Source: a virus
Strand: one strand, 5' to 3'
Virus record (IMG/VR): IMGVR_UViG_3300043172_000260
Coordinates: 1-29,037 of that record
Length of the DNA: 29,037 nt
A model generated the notes under the pieces. The model was given only the letters and a program-made list of their open reading frames with translations, made no database searches and was not told where the DNA came from. Position numbers and translations under genes: made by a program. Position 1 is the first letter of the stretch. The number at the start of each line of letters is the position of its first letter. This document shows, piece after piece, positions 4,309 to 21,900 of this stretch.

Positions 4309-5304
4309 ATGGCCTATCCTAATGGTTCACCAATGCCCTATGCGGCAGGTATTCCGTCCATTGGTAATGCGGCGATGCAGTATATCCCCATCTTGTATGC
4401 GGGTAAAACCATCAAGCGTTACTACGAAAATTCGATCATCCCTTTTATCAGTAACACTGATTATGAGGGTATGATCCGCGCTCAGGGTAACGAAGTGAAA
4501 ATTCGTACCGTCCCTGAAATCGCGATCGAAGATCACGCTATCGGTGATGTGATCACGAATCAGCGTCCTCTGTCCACGGCGAAGACGCTCGTGATCGACA
4601 AAGCGAAGCGCTGGTCCTTCATCATCGAGGACATCGAGCAGGTCCAAACCGACCTGAAAAACCGTGTAGGCGAGTGGTCTACAAACGCGGCTGAAAACCT
4701 TGATGCCGTTATCGCGACTGATGTCCTTGCGGACATCCCTTCGCAGGTTGGTGTAGCCAACCAGGGCACGACTGCCGGCGCTGTATCCGGTATGATCGAC
4801 CTCGGTACTACTACGAAGACCGGAATGATCACGCTGACTGCGGCGACGGTCATGAAGAAGATCGTTGAGCTCGGAGCCATTATGGACGAGCAGAATGCAC
4901 CTGACGCTGGTCGTTGGTTGCTGATCGATCCTCTGACTGCGGCTCTGTTGAAGTCTTCGGACATCAAAGACGCCAGCCTGACAGGCGATGGCAAGTCCCC
5001 ATTCCGTTCCGGATTGGTTGGACAGGTTGACCGTTTCACCGTGTTCACCACGAACCGTCTGAAGCGCGATCTCGTAACTGCTGGTGCTACCGGCGGCGGC
5101 GCGGCTGATCCTAATAACTATTACACAAACATGCTGTTTGGTAACCGTGAAGCACTGACGTTTGCCACCCAGTTGACCAAGAATAAGATGCAGGACGATC
5201 CTAACGGATTCGACATGATCTATCGTGGTCTGCAGGTGTATGGCTATGAAGTGATCAAACCTGAAGCGATTGGCCTGCTCCGCGCACAGCCATCATTCGC
5301 GTAA
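4309..5304 (+). CDS. Major capsid protein
   Basis: A 331-residue protein that I read as the HK97-fold coat subunit of the icosahedral head. It sits directly after the scaffold-like gene and before a small beta-rich protein. The length suits a coat protein without a long N-terminal delta domain, consistent with a separate scaffold. Recognisable features include an N-terminal segment rich in Tyr, Pro and Gly, a charged helical stretch (VQTDLKNRVGEWSTNAAEN) near residues 110-130, and a late loop with GGGAADPNNYYTN. The codon choice (CGT, GGT) and spacing look like a highly expressed gene. AGGAG precedes the ATG and is partly in a hairpin. An opposite-strand open frame of 163 codons is a shadow. 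Confidence 0.88.
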   Translation: MAYPNGSPMPYAAGIPSIGNAAMQYIPILYAGKTIKRYYENSIIPFISNTDYEGMIRAQGNEVKIRTVPEIAIEDHAIGDVITNQRPLSTAKTLVIDKAKRWSFIIEDIEQVQTDLKNRVGEWSTNAAENLDAVIATDVLADIPSQVGVANQGTTAGAVSGMIDLGTTTKTGMITLTAATVMKKIVELGAIMDEQNAPDAGRWLLIDPLTAALLKSSDIKDASLTGDGKSPFRSGLVGQVDRFTVFTTNRLKRDLVTAGATGGGAADPNNYYTNMLFGNREALTFATQLTKNKMQDDPNGFDMIYRGLQVYGYEVIKPEAIGLLRAQPSFA

Positions 5305-7667: not shown

Positions 7668-8283
7668 ACAAAAATCAAAAGCCGCACCCTTGTTTTTTGT
7701 GGCGCATAGTCCAGACGGCACTCGGCACATAGGGACAACTCCCGCGGGCCTGCAAACACACAGCGGTCAGGCAGAATTTATAGATGCGGAGAGTGAACAT
7801 GAAGTTTTGATACAGACTAATTTAAAGGGTTTGGATTTTACAGGATACAACCCACTGCCAGAATCTCCGACACCAGTCAAGGAAGGGCTGTACAGCTACG
7901 GATCTGAACTGGTGCTCTGTCGGAAGCCACACGCTAGAGGACTATTTAGTCCAGAGGAGACCCCTCTGTTATTCATAACACACAGGGATAGGCTCGGAGC
8001 GGTAGTGTGGATAGAAGATGAAGCAGTAGAGCGTGGGGTAGTTCGGAGGCATAAAGGGGTTAGATATAGATGCAGACGTAAACACACCACTGATGCGGAT
8101 AGCACGCCTGACACAGCTGGCGCACTTTGGAGAGTTGCCGCGAAGGCATGGGTTGTGCAGGAAGAGGTTACTGTAGGAGACATTCGCAGGTATCATCGAG
8201 TTAGGTATCGCTGTATAAAAGATCACCTCACTCGCGTCGGTAAGACCCCCTCAACGTCGCCTATTCTATGGGAGGTAATATAA
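7657..8283 (+). CDS. Protein with three tandem CBM5/12-like modules
   Basis: A 208-residue protein overlapping the preceding stop by 11 bases, with GGAG six bases before its ATG. Three short modules follow each other at residues about 76-110, 118-160 and 165-208. Each carries the pattern of a start-strand, an HxxxRYRC or YGSELVLCR core, a Lys/Pro-His pair, a Thr-Pro turn, and a closing LW or LF (TPDTAGALWRV; TPSTSPILWEV; EETPLLF). This pattern is typical of chitin/cellulose-binding modules of families 5/12 found in phage adhesins. No enzyme domain is present. Codon use is rich in AGA and ATA compared with neighbours, which suggests later acquisition. Likely a glycan-binding accessory virion protein. 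Confidence 0.7.
   Translation: MIHKQKSKAAPLFFVAHSPDGTRHIGTTPAGLQTHSGQAEFIDAESEHEVLIQTNLKGLDFTGYNPLPESPTPVKEGLYSYGSELVLCRKPHARGLFSPEETPLLFITHRDRLGAVVWIEDEAVERGVVRRHKGVRYRCRRKHTTDADSTPDTAGALWRVAAKAWVVQEEVTVGDIRRYHRVRYRCIKDHLTRVGKTPSTSPILWEVI
8270..8275 (+). promoter_or_regulatory. Shine-Dalgarno deciding the start at 8283
   Basis: GGGAGG lies seven bases before the ATG at 8283, whereas an in-frame ATG at 8268 overlaps the motif itself. The 8283 start also overlaps the previous stop as TAATG. This sets the start five codons later than the longest open frame. Confidence 0.75.
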
Positions 8284-10622
8284 TGGGTATGTACGCATCA
8301 GATGGAACCCTTATCGAGAAACCCGGCGGCCACCTACTCAACGGAAGCGAGTGCACGCTGATTCAGACTACTGCGAATGGGGATGCGTTCAGCGGCGCGA
8401 CGATTTGGGGTGGCGGAGCTACCCTCGCCCAAGACCTCACTGGCGTGGATACTGACGGCCTCACACTCATCGATGATCTTGATACCGTCAACCCTGAACC
8501 CGCCATCCGCGATTCAAACGGTCTCTCCTTTCCTGCTAGCCCCGGCGCAGGGGTTCACTTTAATTCCGCTGGTGGTTTCACAGCATCACCTCACATTAAG
8601 TTCCTAGGAACGATTGATGAGTATGATTCAGGGACACAGTGGCTTGCTCGTAGGAACAATTCGTGGCATGAATTTCAGTTAGTCTCTCACCAAGTCCATG
8701 ATCGGATGGACTGGGTTGTTTATTCGGGAGGTAGTAGCTCGACCAATAAATCATCCTTAGAGTTTCCCGCTTTCAGAACAACTTGGAACGGCAAGGTTGT
8801 AGAGATCGAGTGCTGGTATTCTCCCGCTACAGGGGAACAAGTTTCTCGCATTCGTGAGTTCGGGACAACCCCTTGGACTACATACACGGCTTCAGGTGTG
8901 ACTACTACCATTGCAGAGTTAGCGGTTCCTGACACCCAGATGCTTTGTCTTGGCGGTATCAATGAAAACGTAACGACAGCACCCTTCATCTACAAAGGTG
9001 TGATGGGATACCTAGAACTGCGCGACTTCGATGCAGACACTCTTCTCCATCGTTGGGTTCCATCTGTGGTATCTAATACACTTTACGATACGTCTGGCAA
9101 CGGTGGACACCTGACCCTTTCCGGCGGTACGAAGGAAACATGTTTCGCCACGCAGGATTTCTATGCCCACAACCATAGCAAAGGCTTCGGGAGGACTGAG
9201 GGAGTTGGTAGTTTCACGCTAGCTGTCGTGCCTGACATGCAGGAGTCCTCAGATGGGCGTTTAGCCCTATGGGATGACGTTTCCGATTGGCTCGACACAA
9301 ACAGCGACGAGTACCAAGCCATCCTATGCACAGGCGATTTAGTTAATCATGGCAACAACCAGACTCAATTTGATGCTGTCACACCGTGGATCACCACGAT
9401 AGACGCTCTCGGGAAACCTTTCCTCCTGTGCGCAGGTAACCACGACTACTCCTCGCAGGGTAATCCTACGGATCATACAGCTACAATGTTTGATGTTGCT
9501 TGGGGACAGGGTCGCCTGACTGGAAAATCTTGGTGGGACGGAGGTTTTGAAGGCTCCAACGCACGGAACTATTACTCCAAGCATACCCTTAATGGCTTCA
9601 AAGTCATGGTGGTAGTGCTTGACTGGGTTCCGTTAAAAACATCTGTCGCTTGGGCTAAGGGCATCATGTCAGCAAATCCAGATTATTCTGTAGTCTTCCT
9701 TAATCATGCCTGCCTAGGTCCAGACGGTTACATCATGTCTGCTTCAGATGATTACGATGCGGCTGAGTATGCTATATACGATTCAGCTACCATGTATACC
9801 GCAGAGGAGACTTGGGATCAGATAAAAACGGAAGATAACCTCCGTGTGATAATAGCAGGGCACATCTTTGATGCCGCGGCCGTGTCTCCTTCACAGGAAC
9901 TGGTAGCCGATGATGGTCATATTGTAACCACCCATGTTTGTAATTTCCACGATAATATCGGGGATGAGAACGAGCAGGGGTACATCCAACTGCTGGACTT
10001 CACAGTCGACGGCACGGTCGTAACAGTTAAAACCGTAAGTACGGTGGATCTGGATGAGCCTAGCTCGTCTCAATATGCTTACACTAAAACAGGTGCCGCG
10101 ATTACAGAGGTACCTAGTGGCGATCGCATCCCTGCTCAAGAGGATGAGCTATTCGCGGCAGACGGCTCGGCGATCACGAACCCTGGAAGCAAGGTTCATA
10201 ATGACAGCGAGAGCACGCTCCAGCAGACTAGCGCGACGTTTAACGACTTCGGAGGCGCGACGGTTTGGGGCGACGGTTCCACTCAATGGGATAAAGTAAC
10301 CTTCGCCGACATGATGGCCCACACTGACGGGGTTGGAGGTTCAACCTTCACCAAGGTCGACGTTGGCGGCATTGAGATGATCGAGCGTGCGGTTCAGTCT
10401 TCAGGTGCGGCCCTCTGGGTCGAAGTAACGCTTGCTGACTTCCTCGCCAAACAATCCGGTGAGGACAACTCGTGGTTTAAGTTCGTCATAGACAACGGGT
10501 ACTGCATGCTCGACGAGACCTGGCAATTCCCGGTGACTCAGGCGCTGACCGATGCGGAGCACAACCAGAACGTCGCTGATCAAGGGGACTCAGGATGCGG
10601 CGTACCCGCCACGTTGAGGTAA
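8283..10622 (+). CDS. Virion protein with LamG-like and metallophosphoesterase domains
   Basis: A 779-residue protein. An N-terminal module (1-80) is followed by a LamG-like domain to about residue 290, ending DTSGNGGHLTL. A calcineurin-like metallophosphoesterase domain follows at about 312-590. Its motifs appear in the right order: PDMQ (Asp318, with Gln where DxH is usual), GDLVNHG (351-357), GNHD (385-388), a later FLNHA (His475) and AGHIF (526-530), where the usual GHxH second His is Phe. Metal binding is therefore plausible but partly altered. Residues about 622-675 repeat the N-terminal module. A C-terminal 100-residue region is unassigned. It probably acts on the virion surface; hydrolysis of a phosphoester in capsule or teichoic-like polymer is one possibility, not shown. 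Confidence 0.75.
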   Translation: MGMYASDGTLIEKPGGHLLNGSECTLIQTTANGDAFSGATIWGGGATLAQDLTGVDTDGLTLIDDLDTVNPEPAIRDSNGLSFPASPGAGVHFNSAGGFTASPHIKFLGTIDEYDSGTQWLARRNNSWHEFQLVSHQVHDRMDWVVYSGGSSSTNKSSLEFPAFRTTWNGKVVEIECWYSPATGEQVSRIREFGTTPWTTYTASGVTTTIAELAVPDTQMLCLGGINENVTTAPFIYKGVMGYLELRDFDADTLLHRWVPSVVSNTLYDTSGNGGHLTLSGGTKETCFATQDFYAHNHSKGFGRTEGVGSFTLAVVPDMQESSDGRLALWDDVSDWLDTNSDEYQAILCTGDLVNHGNNQTQFDAVTPWITTIDALGKPFLLCAGNHDYSSQGNPTDHTATMFDVAWGQGRLTGKSWWDGGFEGSNARNYYSKHTLNGFKVMVVVLDWVPLKTSVAWAKGIMSANPDYSVVFLNHACLGPDGYIMSASDDYDAAEYAIYDSATMYTAEETWDQIKTEDNLRVIIAGHIFDAAAVSPSQELVADDGHIVTTHVCNFHDNIGDENEQGYIQLLDFTVDGTVVTVKTVSTVDLDEPSSSQYAYTKTGAAITEVPSGDRIPAQEDELFAADGSAITNPGSKVHNDSESTLQQTSATFNDFGGATVWGDGSTQWDKVTFADMMAHTDGVGGSTFTKVDVGGIEMIERAVQSSGAALWVEVTLADFLAKQSGEDNSWFKFVIDNGYCMLDETWQFPVTQALTDAEHNQNVADQGDSGCGVPATLR
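8319..8418 (+). repeat. Intragenic module repeat, copy 1 (copy 2 10179-10277)
   Basis: The N-terminal module of this gene (KPGGHLLNGSECTLIQTT through FSGATIWGGG) is repeated near its 3' end as NPGSKVHNDSESTLQQTS through FGGATVWGDG. Both protein and DNA are similar, with GGCGCGACG-ATTTGGGG versus GGCGCGACG-GTTTGGGG. The copies flank the phosphoesterase domain. Confidence 0.7.
8469..8508 (+). repeat. Linker repeat, copy 2 (first copy 6591-6630)
   Basis: Encodes IDDLDTVNPEPAIR and matches the linker in the LamG adhesin gene upstream at both DNA and protein level. It lies between the N-terminal module and the LamG-like domain here, the same relative place as in the other gene. Confidence 0.7.
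10179..10277 (+). repeat. Intragenic module repeat, copy 2
   Basis: C-terminal counterpart of the module at 8319-8418. It begins after a Pro/Gln/Glu linker that follows the phosphoesterase domain and is followed by about 100 residues with no matching partner. Confidence 0.7.
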
Positions 10623-17317: not shown

Positions 17318-18055
17318 ATGGCCACAATCCTAGATCTAAAAGTAGCACAGTTCTTCCGCACCACTCTCACGACCTCTATCTCAGCGGGCACAGGCACCAC
17401 AGAGATTCAAGTGGCCAGCGTCGATGGGTTCCCCCTACCTACCGGGAGTGAGTATTTCTACCTCACGCTGGTTGACGGGGACACCGCCGAGACCGTTAAG
17501 ATCGAGAGCGTAAACCCGGGAACGAACACCCTTACCACCTTTGCAGGCGATGTGGTGGAACTCGGCTTTGAAAAAGGAGTCACCCGTGCGGAACTCTGGT
17601 TCACCGCCGAAGCGTTTGACGACATTCAGCAGGCCATTGAAGCGATTGACGGCGGGGGCGGTGGCGGAATCCCTCCCGATGAGAACTCCATCACCAACGA
17701 CGGGGGTGTCCTCAAAGTCAAACCATGGGGCGGAGATCCTTTGGCCGGAATCCAATCCACCCACATCCAGGATGCCGCCATCGGTAACCTTAAGATCGCG
17801 GCCAACGCGGTCCACGAGATTCAGATCCAGAACGCCGCTGTGACGAATCAGAAGATTGCCGCCGTTGACGCAGGGAAGATCACCACCGGAGATATCGCAA
17901 GGCTCCGCATGACTTCCGGCACAGGGTTAGGGCGCTCAAGCGTTTCGACCACCTCTGCGGCGCTTAGCTTTCTCCACATTGCGTACTCTGTGGTCGGAGG
18001 AGCCCCCACCGGGGGAGTAGACGGGGACATTGCCATTGAGTGGGAGGACTTATAA
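17318..18055 (+). CDS. Fibre-shaft-like protein
   Basis: A 245-residue protein. Residues 1-105 form a beta-rich module (ISAGTGTTEIQVASVDGFP), followed by a poly-Gly linker. A shaft-like series follows at about residues 145-195, with repeated Ala/Ile/Asn units (IQDAAIGNLKIAANAV, IQNAAVTNQKIAAVDAGKI), as in trimeric phage fibres. The last 50 residues are beta-rich. The pattern resembles short tail fibres and side fibres of many phages. It immediately precedes the GTG-start adhesin gene and may present it, as a shaft does a tip; that relation is inferred. Confidence 0.66.
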   Translation: MATILDLKVAQFFRTTLTTSISAGTGTTEIQVASVDGFPLPTGSEYFYLTLVDGDTAETVKIESVNPGTNTLTTFAGDVVELGFEKGVTRAELWFTAEAFDDIQQAIEAIDGGGGGGIPPDENSITNDGGVLKVKPWGGDPLAGIQSTHIQDAAIGNLKIAANAVHEIQIQNAAVTNQKIAAVDAGKITTGDIARLRMTSGTGLGRSSVSTTSAALSFLHIAYSVVGGAPTGGVDGDIAIEWEDL

Positions 18056-19804
18056 GTGGGAAAAGCACTCTCAATTAAAGAGCCCGGATGGCTGTACTCT
18101 AAGATAGCTGGCTCGTGGAAACGCGCCAAGAACATCTATATAAATGACGGAACCGGAGTTCAGGTCCCACAGAAGGACCAATTGACCGCAAGTGTTGACG
18201 CCCGACTAGGTGTTGGGAGCACGCTCGCTGTGGAGGGTCAGCTCTATTCCGCAAAGACTGACGGCGTTGCCTACACCCGCAACGTTGACTTCTGGGCCGC
18301 CGACGTCGACATCAGTTGTGTCTCCGTGTGGAACAACCGCTCCCCGTCGATCCGTCGTCTGACCGCTATCACTCCTCGGCACGCCGTAGGTGCGGAGCAT
18401 TATAACGACGGGTATTGGGACTATGCTATCGGGGACGTTTATGGGTTCCTCGGTATGGACAACACCTACCACACTGTTACGATTGAGGGGCTCATCCACA
18501 ACACTAACCATTCTCAAGACATGACGATCGCAGTGTTTGATTCCGACCTACCTACGAATATCACCCCTGTTAAAGTCCTCCCTGAGAACTGGGGCGACTA
18601 TATTGATAGGTTTAACGACCAGCTCCCGGATAGCGCTTATACAATCCCCGCCTTAACCCTCAACAAAAATTTCGAAGGCATCGTCCCGATCTGGAATTAC
18701 TACGTCGATGTCCCTGAAGCGGTGTATGAAAGGATGGCCTACGTTGAAGGTCAATTCTACACCAACCCGGAATACAGTGCGATGTACCGCCGACCCTCTT
18801 CAGGAGACTCAGGCAACCCTCAGTTCTTTATCTCCGAAGGCAAACCCCTATTGCTTTCACACTGGACAGGCCCCACTGCTGGCCCTGCTTATGTTGGGTA
18901 CGTTGACGAAGTCAATGCGGCCATCGTAACCCTAGACGGAGCGATTCAGACCGGGTATACGATAGAAGAGGGAAGCTTCCCCGATGACGGAGGTTGGAAG
19001 AAGGTTAACCGAATCCACATCAAGGACGATGCAACGTGGCGTTCTATCTCGTGGGACCTACCCCAATACAGTGTCACCATCACAGACACAGAACCCGACC
19101 TTGATTTATTCACCTATCTCGGCTCGCCTGATTTCCCTGTGCACATCATTTTAACCGTCTCCACCGGAGCCACCCTTTACAGCACGGACCCAACGAACGG
19201 GGCGTGCTTCGCTTCAGGCCCGTTCGCCGCAGGCACCTACCTGGAAGTCATCAACCGTGGTGAGATCTACGGAAGCCATGGAGCAGGTGGCCAAGGGGGC
19301 CAAGGAGCTTTGGTGTTCCAGCAAGGAAACCCCGGAGCCCGTGGCGGAACGGCTCTAGACATCTCGCAGATTGGACCCACTGAAATCGACAACACGAACG
19401 GCCTCCTCTTCGGGGGTGGTGGCGGTGGTGGCGGAGGTAGTGGAACGGACGGTCCGGCGGCAGGTGGCGGAGGCGGCGGAAATCCCGGAGGGCCCGCAGG
19501 GAACCTACCGGGCGGCGGCGAGGCCGGAGCTCAGGGCACAACTGCATTTTACACGACTGCGGCTGGAGGCGCTGGGGGGGTTACTACAGACCCACCCTAC
19601 CCGGACGTCACCATCGCAGGTACTGGAGGGACAGCCGAAGTTGGAGAGATCGGAGGGCTAGGAGGTTTTGCATTCCCCTTCGGCTCTGGGCTAAACCCCG
19701 GGGAGGGGGGAGCCGTCGGCCCCTCCATCGAGTTCGGAGTTTTCGAATGGGACATTACGGCAGGCGACACCGCCTCCAAAGTCAAAGGACCTAAAGAATC
19801 ATGA
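18056..19804 (+). CDS. Polyglycine-tipped adhesin with trypsin-like serine protease domain
   Basis: A 582-residue protein with a GTG start; GGAGG lies about eight bases upstream, inside the previous gene's end. Residues 10-35 (SKIAGSWKRAKNIYINDGTG) are a fibre-type attachment motif, repeated in weaker form near 312-332. Residues about 60-290 carry a chymotrypsin/trypsin-type triad in order: His109 in TPRHAV, Asp155 in QDMTIAVFD, Ser252 in SSGDSGNP, then LLLSHW. Spacings of 46 and 97 match trypsin's 45 and 93. Residues about 340-560 hold a beta region and long glycine-rich stretches, as in gp38-like adhesin tips. Likely a receptor-binding or maturing adhesin; protease activity is inferred, not shown. 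Confidence 0.75.
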   Translation: MGKALSIKEPGWLYSKIAGSWKRAKNIYINDGTGVQVPQKDQLTASVDARLGVGSTLAVEGQLYSAKTDGVAYTRNVDFWAADVDISCVSVWNNRSPSIRRLTAITPRHAVGAEHYNDGYWDYAIGDVYGFLGMDNTYHTVTIEGLIHNTNHSQDMTIAVFDSDLPTNITPVKVLPENWGDYIDRFNDQLPDSAYTIPALTLNKNFEGIVPIWNYYVDVPEAVYERMAYVEGQFYTNPEYSAMYRRPSSGDSGNPQFFISEGKPLLLSHWTGPTAGPAYVGYVDEVNAAIVTLDGAIQTGYTIEEGSFPDDGGWKKVNRIHIKDDATWRSISWDLPQYSVTITDTEPDLDLFTYLGSPDFPVHIILTVSTGATLYSTDPTNGACFASGPFAAGTYLEVINRGEIYGSHGAGGQGGQGALVFQQGNPGARGGTALDISQIGPTEIDNTNGLLFGGGGGGGGGSGTDGPAAGGGGGGNPGGPAGNLPGGGEAGAQGTTAFYTTAAGGAGGVTTDPPYPDVTIAGTGGTAEVGEIGGLGGFAFPFGSGLNPGEGGAVGPSIEFGVFEWDITAGDTASKVKGPKES

Positions 19805-21900
19805 AACTAAGCTATCAGCAGTTTTCAGGAATGCGCCCAGCCGTTGACCCTCGGGTATTGGCCAGTGGCGAAGCCCTCGATGCGGAAGATTGTGATCTTC
19901 GGTATCAAACCGCTCAACCGTTCCTTGCCCCTGACCCCTCCACCTTGACGGGGATTCGGCATGAACCGCTGGGCTATCTAGCCGCCGGACTCCTTGACAA
20001 CGCCGGGACTCCGATTAACCATTTGCATGATATCACCCACTACGAAGACGGTGGCGTTCCTAAAGGCGTGTACGATGTAAACGAACGGGGGACGTGTATC
20101 GCCCCTTCCGTCGTTGCGCGAGACGCTCACCAACGTGTCTATTTCAGTCGGCCCGAGGGTGGGGTATACGATCGAGGACGTACTGACGGTTCGGGAGCCT
20201 TCGAAGAGCGCACCGTAGGCGTCCCCGCCCCGGTTGATCCCGACTTGATTCAAGCCCCTACTGTATCCCCTCGCGATGACTCCGAAGCGCAGAGCGGGTT
20301 CAACATGACGTGGTTCTACTACATTGAGGAAATCCTCGCGCCGAACACTATCAGCGAGCAGGGGGGCCTATCTCAAAACAACATGGTCCTTGAGACGATC
20401 AACGACCTGTTTGATAACGCGACGTTCCGGTATACCTATGACGTGCCTATCACCACGCTTGGGCATCCGTTCTTCGGGTACGACGACACGGTCTACCACT
20501 TCATCATGTATGCCGAGATGACCTCACTCAACGGAAGATTCCTCGGTACCGTGTATCCGAGCCCCAGTATCCGGCAGGAAGACACCGACGCCTTTGTCGG
20601 AGGAACCCGAGCTGTGGCTACCATGGGTCTTAACGAGGATGCCACCCCCGACGATTTATATTTTTGTGATGTTTTATTCAACCCCGCCGGGGATGAGTAT
20701 TCCTATTACCGCTCTTATTTGTTCACATACGTCACCGACCGTGGCGAAGAGTCAGGCCCCTCAGCCTCCACCGATCCGTTCTCCGTCCTCCCGTCCCAGA
20801 AGGTGGACTTGAAGATCGACATTGCGAACGCTCCGGATAACGCGGAGTTGGTGCGGATCTACCGTACCGAGACCACCGAGGGAGGGACCTCCTTCTTCTT
20901 CGTCGCTGATGTGACGATCGTTTCGAGTCAAGTGGTCTACGAAGACCTGCTCCTTTCCGTGGACCTTCCCGGAGACACACTCCAGACGCTTAACTGGGAC
21001 GCGCCTCCCGATGACCTCAAAGGGCTGGTGCTGTCCACTAAAGGATTCTACGCAGGCTACGTCGGGAACAAGCTGATGCTCTCTGAGCCCTTCGTGGCTT
21101 ATGCATGGCCTACGGACTTCGCCATCGACTTCACGGGAGACATCACCCACATCTCAAGGTATGGGGATAACCTCGCCGTGTTCACTGACCGTGAGATTGC
21201 CTTGATTGTCGGCAACACCCCGCTTGAAGTGCGGAAAATTAAGGTCGAAGGGTTTGAAAACCTGACCTCGATCTTCTCCACGACCGAGATGGACGGGCTG
21301 TTATACTTCGCCTGCACCACGGGGATCGCTGTAATTTCCGGATCAAACGTAGCCATCGTAACCGACGAACTGCTCTCCGAGCGGTTCTGGAGAGACAGCA
21401 TCAACTCGTCTCAAGTTCGCTTGGCCTCCCTTGATAACACAATCTACATGCTGTCCGACCCGGATGATCAGGTCTGGCGGATAGGGCTTCAGGAAGACGG
21501 GGGCGGTTTGGTCAAACTTTCCGACGCCAACATTCGGGATCTCTACTCCTCGTCCTACTACCTCGGTGTGATCATGCTCCCGAGTTCAGAATCAGACTTC
21601 TACGTGTTCAACATCGGAGCCGACGTTCCGCGAACCGTCCGTTGGAGAGGACGGGTTGAGGTCGCTCAGGTCCCGATGTCTATTATCACCGTTCGGGTGC
21701 TGGCGGATGAGTACCCGGTCACCCTCAGAATCTTCGAGGGTGAAGACTTAAACCCTGTACCTAACGGGGAAATTGTGTTAAGCAGTGATAAGATTCGGAA
21801 GCTTCCCGTATACCGCAGAGGTCGCGAGTGGAGTTTTGAAGTGGAAGGGGACACCAACATTGTCGGATTGGAACTCGGAACCAGCGGGAGGGTCAGATGA
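19801..21900 (+). CDS. Tail nozzle/hub-like protein
   Basis: A 699-residue protein that overlaps the adhesin gene by ATGA and has AAGGA upstream. Its middle contains a pattern I know from a widespread phage tail family: a LSTKGFYAGYVGNKLMLSEP region near residue 409, followed by AYAWPTDFAIDF and a DNLAVFTDREIALIVG strand. Such proteins are thought to form the beta-propeller-like nozzle or hub of short tails (gp12/gp10-like). An Fn3/IgG-like region lies near residues 300-395 (YLFTYVTDRGEESGPSAS). The position downstream of the adaptor genes and upstream of ejection proteins agrees. Exact counterpart is inferred. Confidence 0.7.
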   Translation: MKLSYQQFSGMRPAVDPRVLASGEALDAEDCDLRYQTAQPFLAPDPSTLTGIRHEPLGYLAAGLLDNAGTPINHLHDITHYEDGGVPKGVYDVNERGTCIAPSVVARDAHQRVYFSRPEGGVYDRGRTDGSGAFEERTVGVPAPVDPDLIQAPTVSPRDDSEAQSGFNMTWFYYIEEILAPNTISEQGGLSQNNMVLETINDLFDNATFRYTYDVPITTLGHPFFGYDDTVYHFIMYAEMTSLNGRFLGTVYPSPSIRQEDTDAFVGGTRAVATMGLNEDATPDDLYFCDVLFNPAGDEYSYYRSYLFTYVTDRGEESGPSASTDPFSVLPSQKVDLKIDIANAPDNAELVRIYRTETTEGGTSFFFVADVTIVSSQVVYEDLLLSVDLPGDTLQTLNWDAPPDDLKGLVLSTKGFYAGYVGNKLMLSEPFVAYAWPTDFAIDFTGDITHISRYGDNLAVFTDREIALIVGNTPLEVRKIKVEGFENLTSIFSTTEMDGLLYFACTTGIAVISGSNVAIVTDELLSERFWRDSINSSQVRLASLDNTIYMLSDPDDQVWRIGLQEDGGGLVKLSDANIRDLYSSSYYLGVIMLPSSESDFYVFNIGADVPRTVRWRGRVEVAQVPMSIITVRVLADEYPVTLRIFEGEDLNPVPNGEIVLSSDKIRKLPVYRRGREWSFEVEGDTNIVGLELGTSGRVR

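Follow-up and report, generated by a model that had tools for sequence, protein, structure and literature searches.

What is a protease of the trypsin fold doing inside a phage adhesin? The question is raised by a single open reading frame in a 29,037-nucleotide stretch of viral DNA (IMG/VR record IMGVR_UViG_3300043172_000260, hereafter the window), for which an initial annotation, made from the letters alone, had proposed a complete trypsin-like catalytic triad within a polyglycine adhesin. The enzymes of phage tails are known chiefly for their action on sugars and peptidoglycan; tailspike depolymerases, for example, are glycan-cleaving enzymes on receptor-binding tail proteins, and the self-cleaving chaperone domains of tail spikes occupy a C-terminal position. 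The window protein bears a resemblance to both, in that an enzyme or self-cleaving domain resides within a receptor-binding tail protein; however, the known domains cleave glycans or serve as intramolecular chaperones and have other folds, whereas the one described here is a trypsin-fold protease. The reading that we favour, leaning just past even chances, is that the protein is a tip adhesin of the gp38 kind with an inserted, active protease that cleaves host surface proteins. Four points come from computation: the protein has the fold, its triad is intact, it contains the adhesin domain, and its gene follows that of a fibre. That the protein is located in the virion tail is very probable, judging from its domains and from the order of the genes, and that host surface proteins are the main substrate is an even bet. 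The fold and the type of adhesin are both known; what appears to be new is a family of tail proteases of which the searched libraries contain essentially no description, together with the fusion of one of them with a gp38-like adhesin, seen once.

The gene and its surroundings

The protease-adhesin gene (Table 1) begins exactly where the tail-fibre gene ends, the TAA stop codon of the latter (18053-18055) being followed by the GTG at 18056 with zero gap. As in gp38-type systems, it follows the gene of the fibre that the adhesin would cap (17318-18055, then 18056), and the order of fibre then adhesin is that of S16-type phages. The G+C content within the open reading frame lies between 0.51 and 0.60, and that of the flanks is similar. 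As far as its genes tell, the window belongs to a tailed phage distant from named relatives: its portal protein (789-2987) is closest to the portals of Rhizobium, Roseobacter and Pelagibacter phages, at 24-29% identity, and is podovirus-like and not T4-like, the gp38 adhesins being those of T-even-like phages. The major head protein (phrog_267) is encoded at 4309-5304, and the virion gene block also contains, at 8268-10622, a gene whose 784-aa product includes a domain of the calcineurin-like metallophosphoesterases (PF00149, E 2.1e-9).

Table 1. Features of the protease-adhesin gene and its neighbours. Residue counts refer to protease family members from 148 loci, with the window and near copies included and gaps left aside; the count for Ser252 is in part a product of the motif by which the family was selected, and those for His and Asp are unbiased by it.
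Feature	Position	Strand	Basis
Upstream tail-fibre gene, 245 aa	17318-18055	+	PHROGs tail fibre families, e.g. phrog_7660, E 8.4e-5
Protease-adhesin gene, 582 aa	18056-19804	+	Open reading frame; GTG start, GGGAGG at 18042-18047, 8 bases ahead
First W-K stalk motif, residues 19-31, GSWKRAKNIYIND	18110-18148	+	Local alignment with second copy
Trypsin-fold serine protease domain, residues 43-305	18182-18970	+	Leave-out family profile, AlphaFold2, Foldseek, VIA-align
His109, earlier pick, not catalytic	18380-18382	+	Aligns with the Trp of trypsin QWVVSAAH
His115, catalytic His (trypsin His57), AEHY	18398-18400	+	Profile alignment; H in 153/153
Asp155, catalytic Asp (trypsin Asp102)	18518-18520	+	Profile alignment; D in 154/154
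GDSGNP, residues 250-255	18803-18820	+	Catalytic Ser252 at 18809-18811; S in 157/157
Second W-K stalk motif, residues 312-324, GGWKKVNRIHIKD	18989-19027	+	Local alignment; phrog_10745 covers residues 311-466
gp38-type polyglycine adhesin domain, about residues 335-582	19058-19801	+	Alignment with 26 relatives, profile, model
Downstream gene, phrog_511 'internal virion protein'	19801-21900	+	PHROGs, E 9.1e-64; overlaps the adhesin stop codon

A trypsin-fold protease domain

That the protein contains a trypsin-fold protease with an intact triad is close to certain. The decisive evidence for this identity is the match of the window open reading frame to a profile of 41 viral relatives from which the window had been left out (E = 7.2e-57, profile positions 3-252); the runner-up frame in the window reaches E = 2.6 against the same profile. 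The motif alone is weak evidence, because H, D and GDSG, if their spacing is left loose, also turn up in 679 of 200,000 shuffled versions of the domain, and the simple argument from their spacing was therefore dropped. A model of the domain computed by AlphaFold2 from a 42-sequence alignment (pLDDT 85.6, pTM 0.88) has the predicted double beta-barrel of the PA clan and bears out the trypsin fold that the initial annotation had expected. Foldseek against the PDB ranks S1-type proteases first (factor IXa, elastase, chymotrypsin; E from 7e-8), and VIA-align superposes the model on delta-chymotrypsin with Z 16.7 (rmsd 3.2 over 184 residues) and on thrombins with Z of about 16. In a viral structure library the model comes closest to an uncharacterized Caudovirales protein from an uncultured phage (TM 0.79), and at the sequence level the family profile matches factor IX (E 2.1e-4) as well as trypsins.

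The domain shares with the S1-like proteases of the PA clan (PF00089) its fold, the identity and the His-Asp-Ser order of the triad, the GDSG motif (both by alignment to trypsin and by their invariance in the family) and the S/T-W segment that comes after. It departs from the solved S1-like proteases in that identity amounts to about 8-14% and the single Cys in residues 41-313 leaves no room for the disulfides of S1A; nor does the translation show an IVGG-like start of the kind that serves zymogen activation there. Having neither conserved disulfides nor that zymogen N-terminus, it is filed as S1-like and not as S1A. Unlike typical members of PF00089, moreover, it is housed in a phage adhesin and falls below Pfam detection, with no match even at E 10 and hence short of the PF00089 cut-off. 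Direct searches with the window protein left the protease part unmatched in Pfam, PHROGs, the sequences of the PDB and named phages, and exact peptide patterns taken from the domain retrieved nothing from viral contigs.

Which residues, then, form the triad? The coordinates given for His109, Asp155 and Ser252 proved correct, and Asp155 and Ser252 are indeed catalytic and without exception conserved; the proposed histidine is not. When the profile is aligned to trypsin and factor IX, ItprHvlfAaH is paired with INDQWVVSAAH, which places the catalytic His at His115, six residues past His109, and in the alignment to trypsin DItiglLdsdl is paired with DIMLIKLSSPV and GDSGNPaFLI with GDSGGP. Since it is His115, Asp155 and Ser252 that pair with the trypsin triad, these three are taken as the catalytic trio. 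His109 is excluded both by this alignment and by its replacement among homologues: of 151 family members, 145 have H at this position and six have Y, F, I or R. Consequently, the first of the two separations within the triad, put at 46 residues in the initial annotation, shrinks to 40, and the second remains 97. The invariance of His115, Asp155 and Ser252 across the aligned sequences argues for selected catalysis and not for a scaffold alone. A further position may bear on specificity: a Glu stands 7 residues ahead of the catalytic Ser in 37 of 42 viral family members, and the window has Arg245 there, so that an altered substrate preference is possible, though this is a guess.

The adhesin and the origin of the fusion

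The part behind the protease is gp38-like by profile and by fold, as the description of the protein as a polyglycine phage adhesin had implied. It aligns with 26 viral polyglycine proteins, and the resulting profile of 27 sequences finds gp38 of Salmonella phage S16 (6F45, E 4.6e-8) and gp38 of PP01 (9V85, E 4.4e-6); the same two structures are the sole Foldseek matches below 0.001 of the AlphaFold2 model of the domain (pLDDT 76, pTM 0.76). Profile and fold thus both identify the polyglycine sandwich domain of the gp38 type, with the qualification that the Pfam score for PF05268 (16.3) stays below the cut-off of 25. In phage S16, gp38 caps the gp37 fibre, its polyglycine domain bears the proposed receptor-binding loops, and its N-terminus forms a three-helix attachment domain with an exposed Trp (PMC6851490). 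The window adhesin is like the gp38 proteins of S16 and PP01 in its C-terminal match and in following a fibre gene, and unlike them in having a protease ahead of the polyglycine domain; at its N-terminus the three-helix attachment domain was not recognised, and just a short W-K motif precedes the protease.

It is this motif that hints at how the fusion arose. The two copies, GSWKRAKNIYIND and GGWKKVNRIHIKD, give a local alignment that was equalled by 8 of 5000 shuffles. A W-K-type motif also precedes the polyglycine adhesins of four other loci (L175, L181, L193 and L196), and in protease-less relatives two such motifs stand next to each other directly before the polyglycine domain (NVGGVWKQQTDKYVNVGGVWKQV; L175, L181 and L193). 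Because the copies flank the protease here but adjoin in the relatives, the protease looks inserted, and the simplest reading of these sequences is that it entered between two W-K stalk repeats. The protease was absent from all 53 polyglycine-adhesin loci searched, and the polyglycine region from all 62 viral protease proteins examined; among the loci searched, the fusion of the two occurs in the window only.

A widespread family of tail-associated proteases

The family was opened by a degenerate DNA scan of viral contigs for GDSGNPxF[LF][IV], which yielded 86 stretches, nearly all of them encoding one evident family that can be aligned over the full window domain and whose members share about 30% identity. 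No model in PHROGs or NCBIfam recognises it, and Pfam Trypsin gives a weak match in 4 of 42 relatives (best E 2.1e-4); being invisible to the first two libraries and nearly so to the third, the family is missed by phage annotation. Among 50,697 records of named phages there is one relative, UOF78081.1, a hypothetical protein of Podoviridae sp. ct3Et533 (MW202510.1) with about 25% identity to other family members; like the window protein, it is encoded near virion structural genes, but its protease sits at the C-terminal end and a polyglycine domain is lacking. A trypsin-like serine protease has been noted in T4-like Rhizobium/Sinorhizobium phages (PMC10783043). Given that tblastn with family members found no named phage besides MW202510.1, no link to that protease could be drawn. 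A literature search for virion trypsin-like proteases on tail fibres returned nothing pertinent, which, as subscription journals lay beyond its coverage, is weak evidence of novelty.

In 49 of the 62 viral relatives the protease occupies the C-terminus of a tail or fibre protein, preceded by Ig-like or fibre regions; in most members the end of the domain (LTxxDLSxF) is kept to the last residues. The neighbouring genes belong, by their matches, to families of tail fibre, minor tail or tape-measure proteins. The claim that a protease in a receptor-binding tip is unusual must accordingly be divided: proteases of this family are widespread on tail and fibre proteins of uncultured phages, and only the gp38-type fusion has been seen in the window alone. 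As for phage markers, phrog_2 was dropped as a hallmark because it also matched 11 of the 14 cellular genomes that served as controls, and the PF03237 terminase scored above its cut-off in 8 of 26 records, a lower bound given that many records are fragments.

Plasmids yielded no family member, and bacterial genomes yielded 60 loci of two sorts. In one sort the neighbours are tail genes: L089 adjoins a tape measure gene, L099 a minor tail gene, and L092, from Anabaena lutea, matches the IMG/VR contig L013. The other sort makes up a separate, mostly Verrucomicrobiota branch (genome loci L102-L147), several members of which have Y, F or R at the position of His109. This branch and the signal-peptide-like N-termini of some relatives (L007, L084 and L098) indicate that the domain is not exclusive to virions. 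In the tree the window protease sits on a long, unresolved branch, and no closest lineage is therefore claimed.

What could the protease be for?

If the protein is a gp38-kind adhesin with an active protease, it would be mounted on the fibre encoded just upstream, its polyglycine domain would bind the host surface, and the tethered protease, active at that surface, would cleave either the receptor or a layer of protein that hides it, in the manner in which tailspike depolymerases attack polysaccharides. Particle exposure appears to be the common denominator, because the relatives carry their protease C-terminally on tail or fibre proteins and near tail genes. What counts against this is that the family extends beyond virions, as the Verrucomicrobiota branch and the signal-peptide-like N-termini show, that the fusion with a polyglycine adhesin has been seen once, and that the C-terminal position in most relatives fits maturation as well. 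Maturation or processing of the fibre, i.e. a one-time cut of the protein itself or of the upstream fibre during assembly with no role at the host surface, is indeed the main rival; the domain is placed in most relatives as are the self-cleaving chaperones of tail spikes, and the fibre and protease-adhesin genes are directly coupled. We nevertheless consider it unlikely for the window, where the protease is internal and the receptor-binding part lies downstream, so that self-removal would detach or shorten the adhesin; furthermore, protease-free polyglycine adhesins are common and thus require no protease to mature, and a domain end conserved to its last residues gives no sign of a discarded tail.

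Could the fold have been retained without its chemistry, as a binding or adaptor module? Inactive trypsin folds do exist, an umbrella toxin particle chain (8w20) is among the Foldseek matches of the model, and a compact domain would be suited to display on a stalk. Yet a pure scaffold would be expected to drop the triad in some lineages, whereas the trio and the oxyanion segment GDSG are invariant even at the low identity of the family, which makes this possibility improbable. Still less probable is a role in defence or interference, in which the enzyme would degrade proteins released by the host, or parts of rival phages, near the particle and not the receptor layer: display on the particle would suit it, nothing specific speaks for it, and an enzyme physically joined to a receptor-binding adhesin would rather be directed at the surface of the cell. 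Least credible of all is that a chimeric contig joined protease and adhesin in assembly; although the fusion was found in one record only, the open reading frame is single and unbroken, its G+C content is similar to that of the flanks, both neighbouring genes abut it directly, and the W-K motif flanks the protease on both sides.

Returning to cleavage at the host surface, can it be extended to the family as a whole? It is a tentative proposal, to which we give a little less than even chances, that a widespread but essentially unnamed trypsin-fold family, borne by the fibres and adhesins of uncultured phages, cleaves proteins of the host surface upon contact; jointly with it, and just as tentatively, the window would represent the extreme case, with the enzyme placed within the receptor-binding adhesin itself. 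The existence of such a family suggests that some phages cut proteins while attaching to their hosts. More broadly, that a protease whose triad never varies recurs on the tail and fibre proteins of uncultured phages suggests either that proteins are cut at the host surface or that fibres mature in a new way. Work with cultured strains is possible, since members with tail-gene-like surroundings occur in Anabaena lutea FACHB-196 (L092:5509-6798) and Luteolibacter pohnpeiensis KCTC 22041 (L099:5581-6753).

The architecture of the relatives shows some further variety. Two open reading frames (L075:2029-3939 and L052:3-1709) each encode two protease domains of the family in tandem, and at four loci (L019, L056, L061 and L071) paralogous protease genes lie side by side. 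Long SAETSAETSAEYT repeats follow the protease domain in the proteins of L020, L023, L033, L038, L044 and L065, and IGSTSAGIGST repeats precede it in those of L015, L042 and L077.
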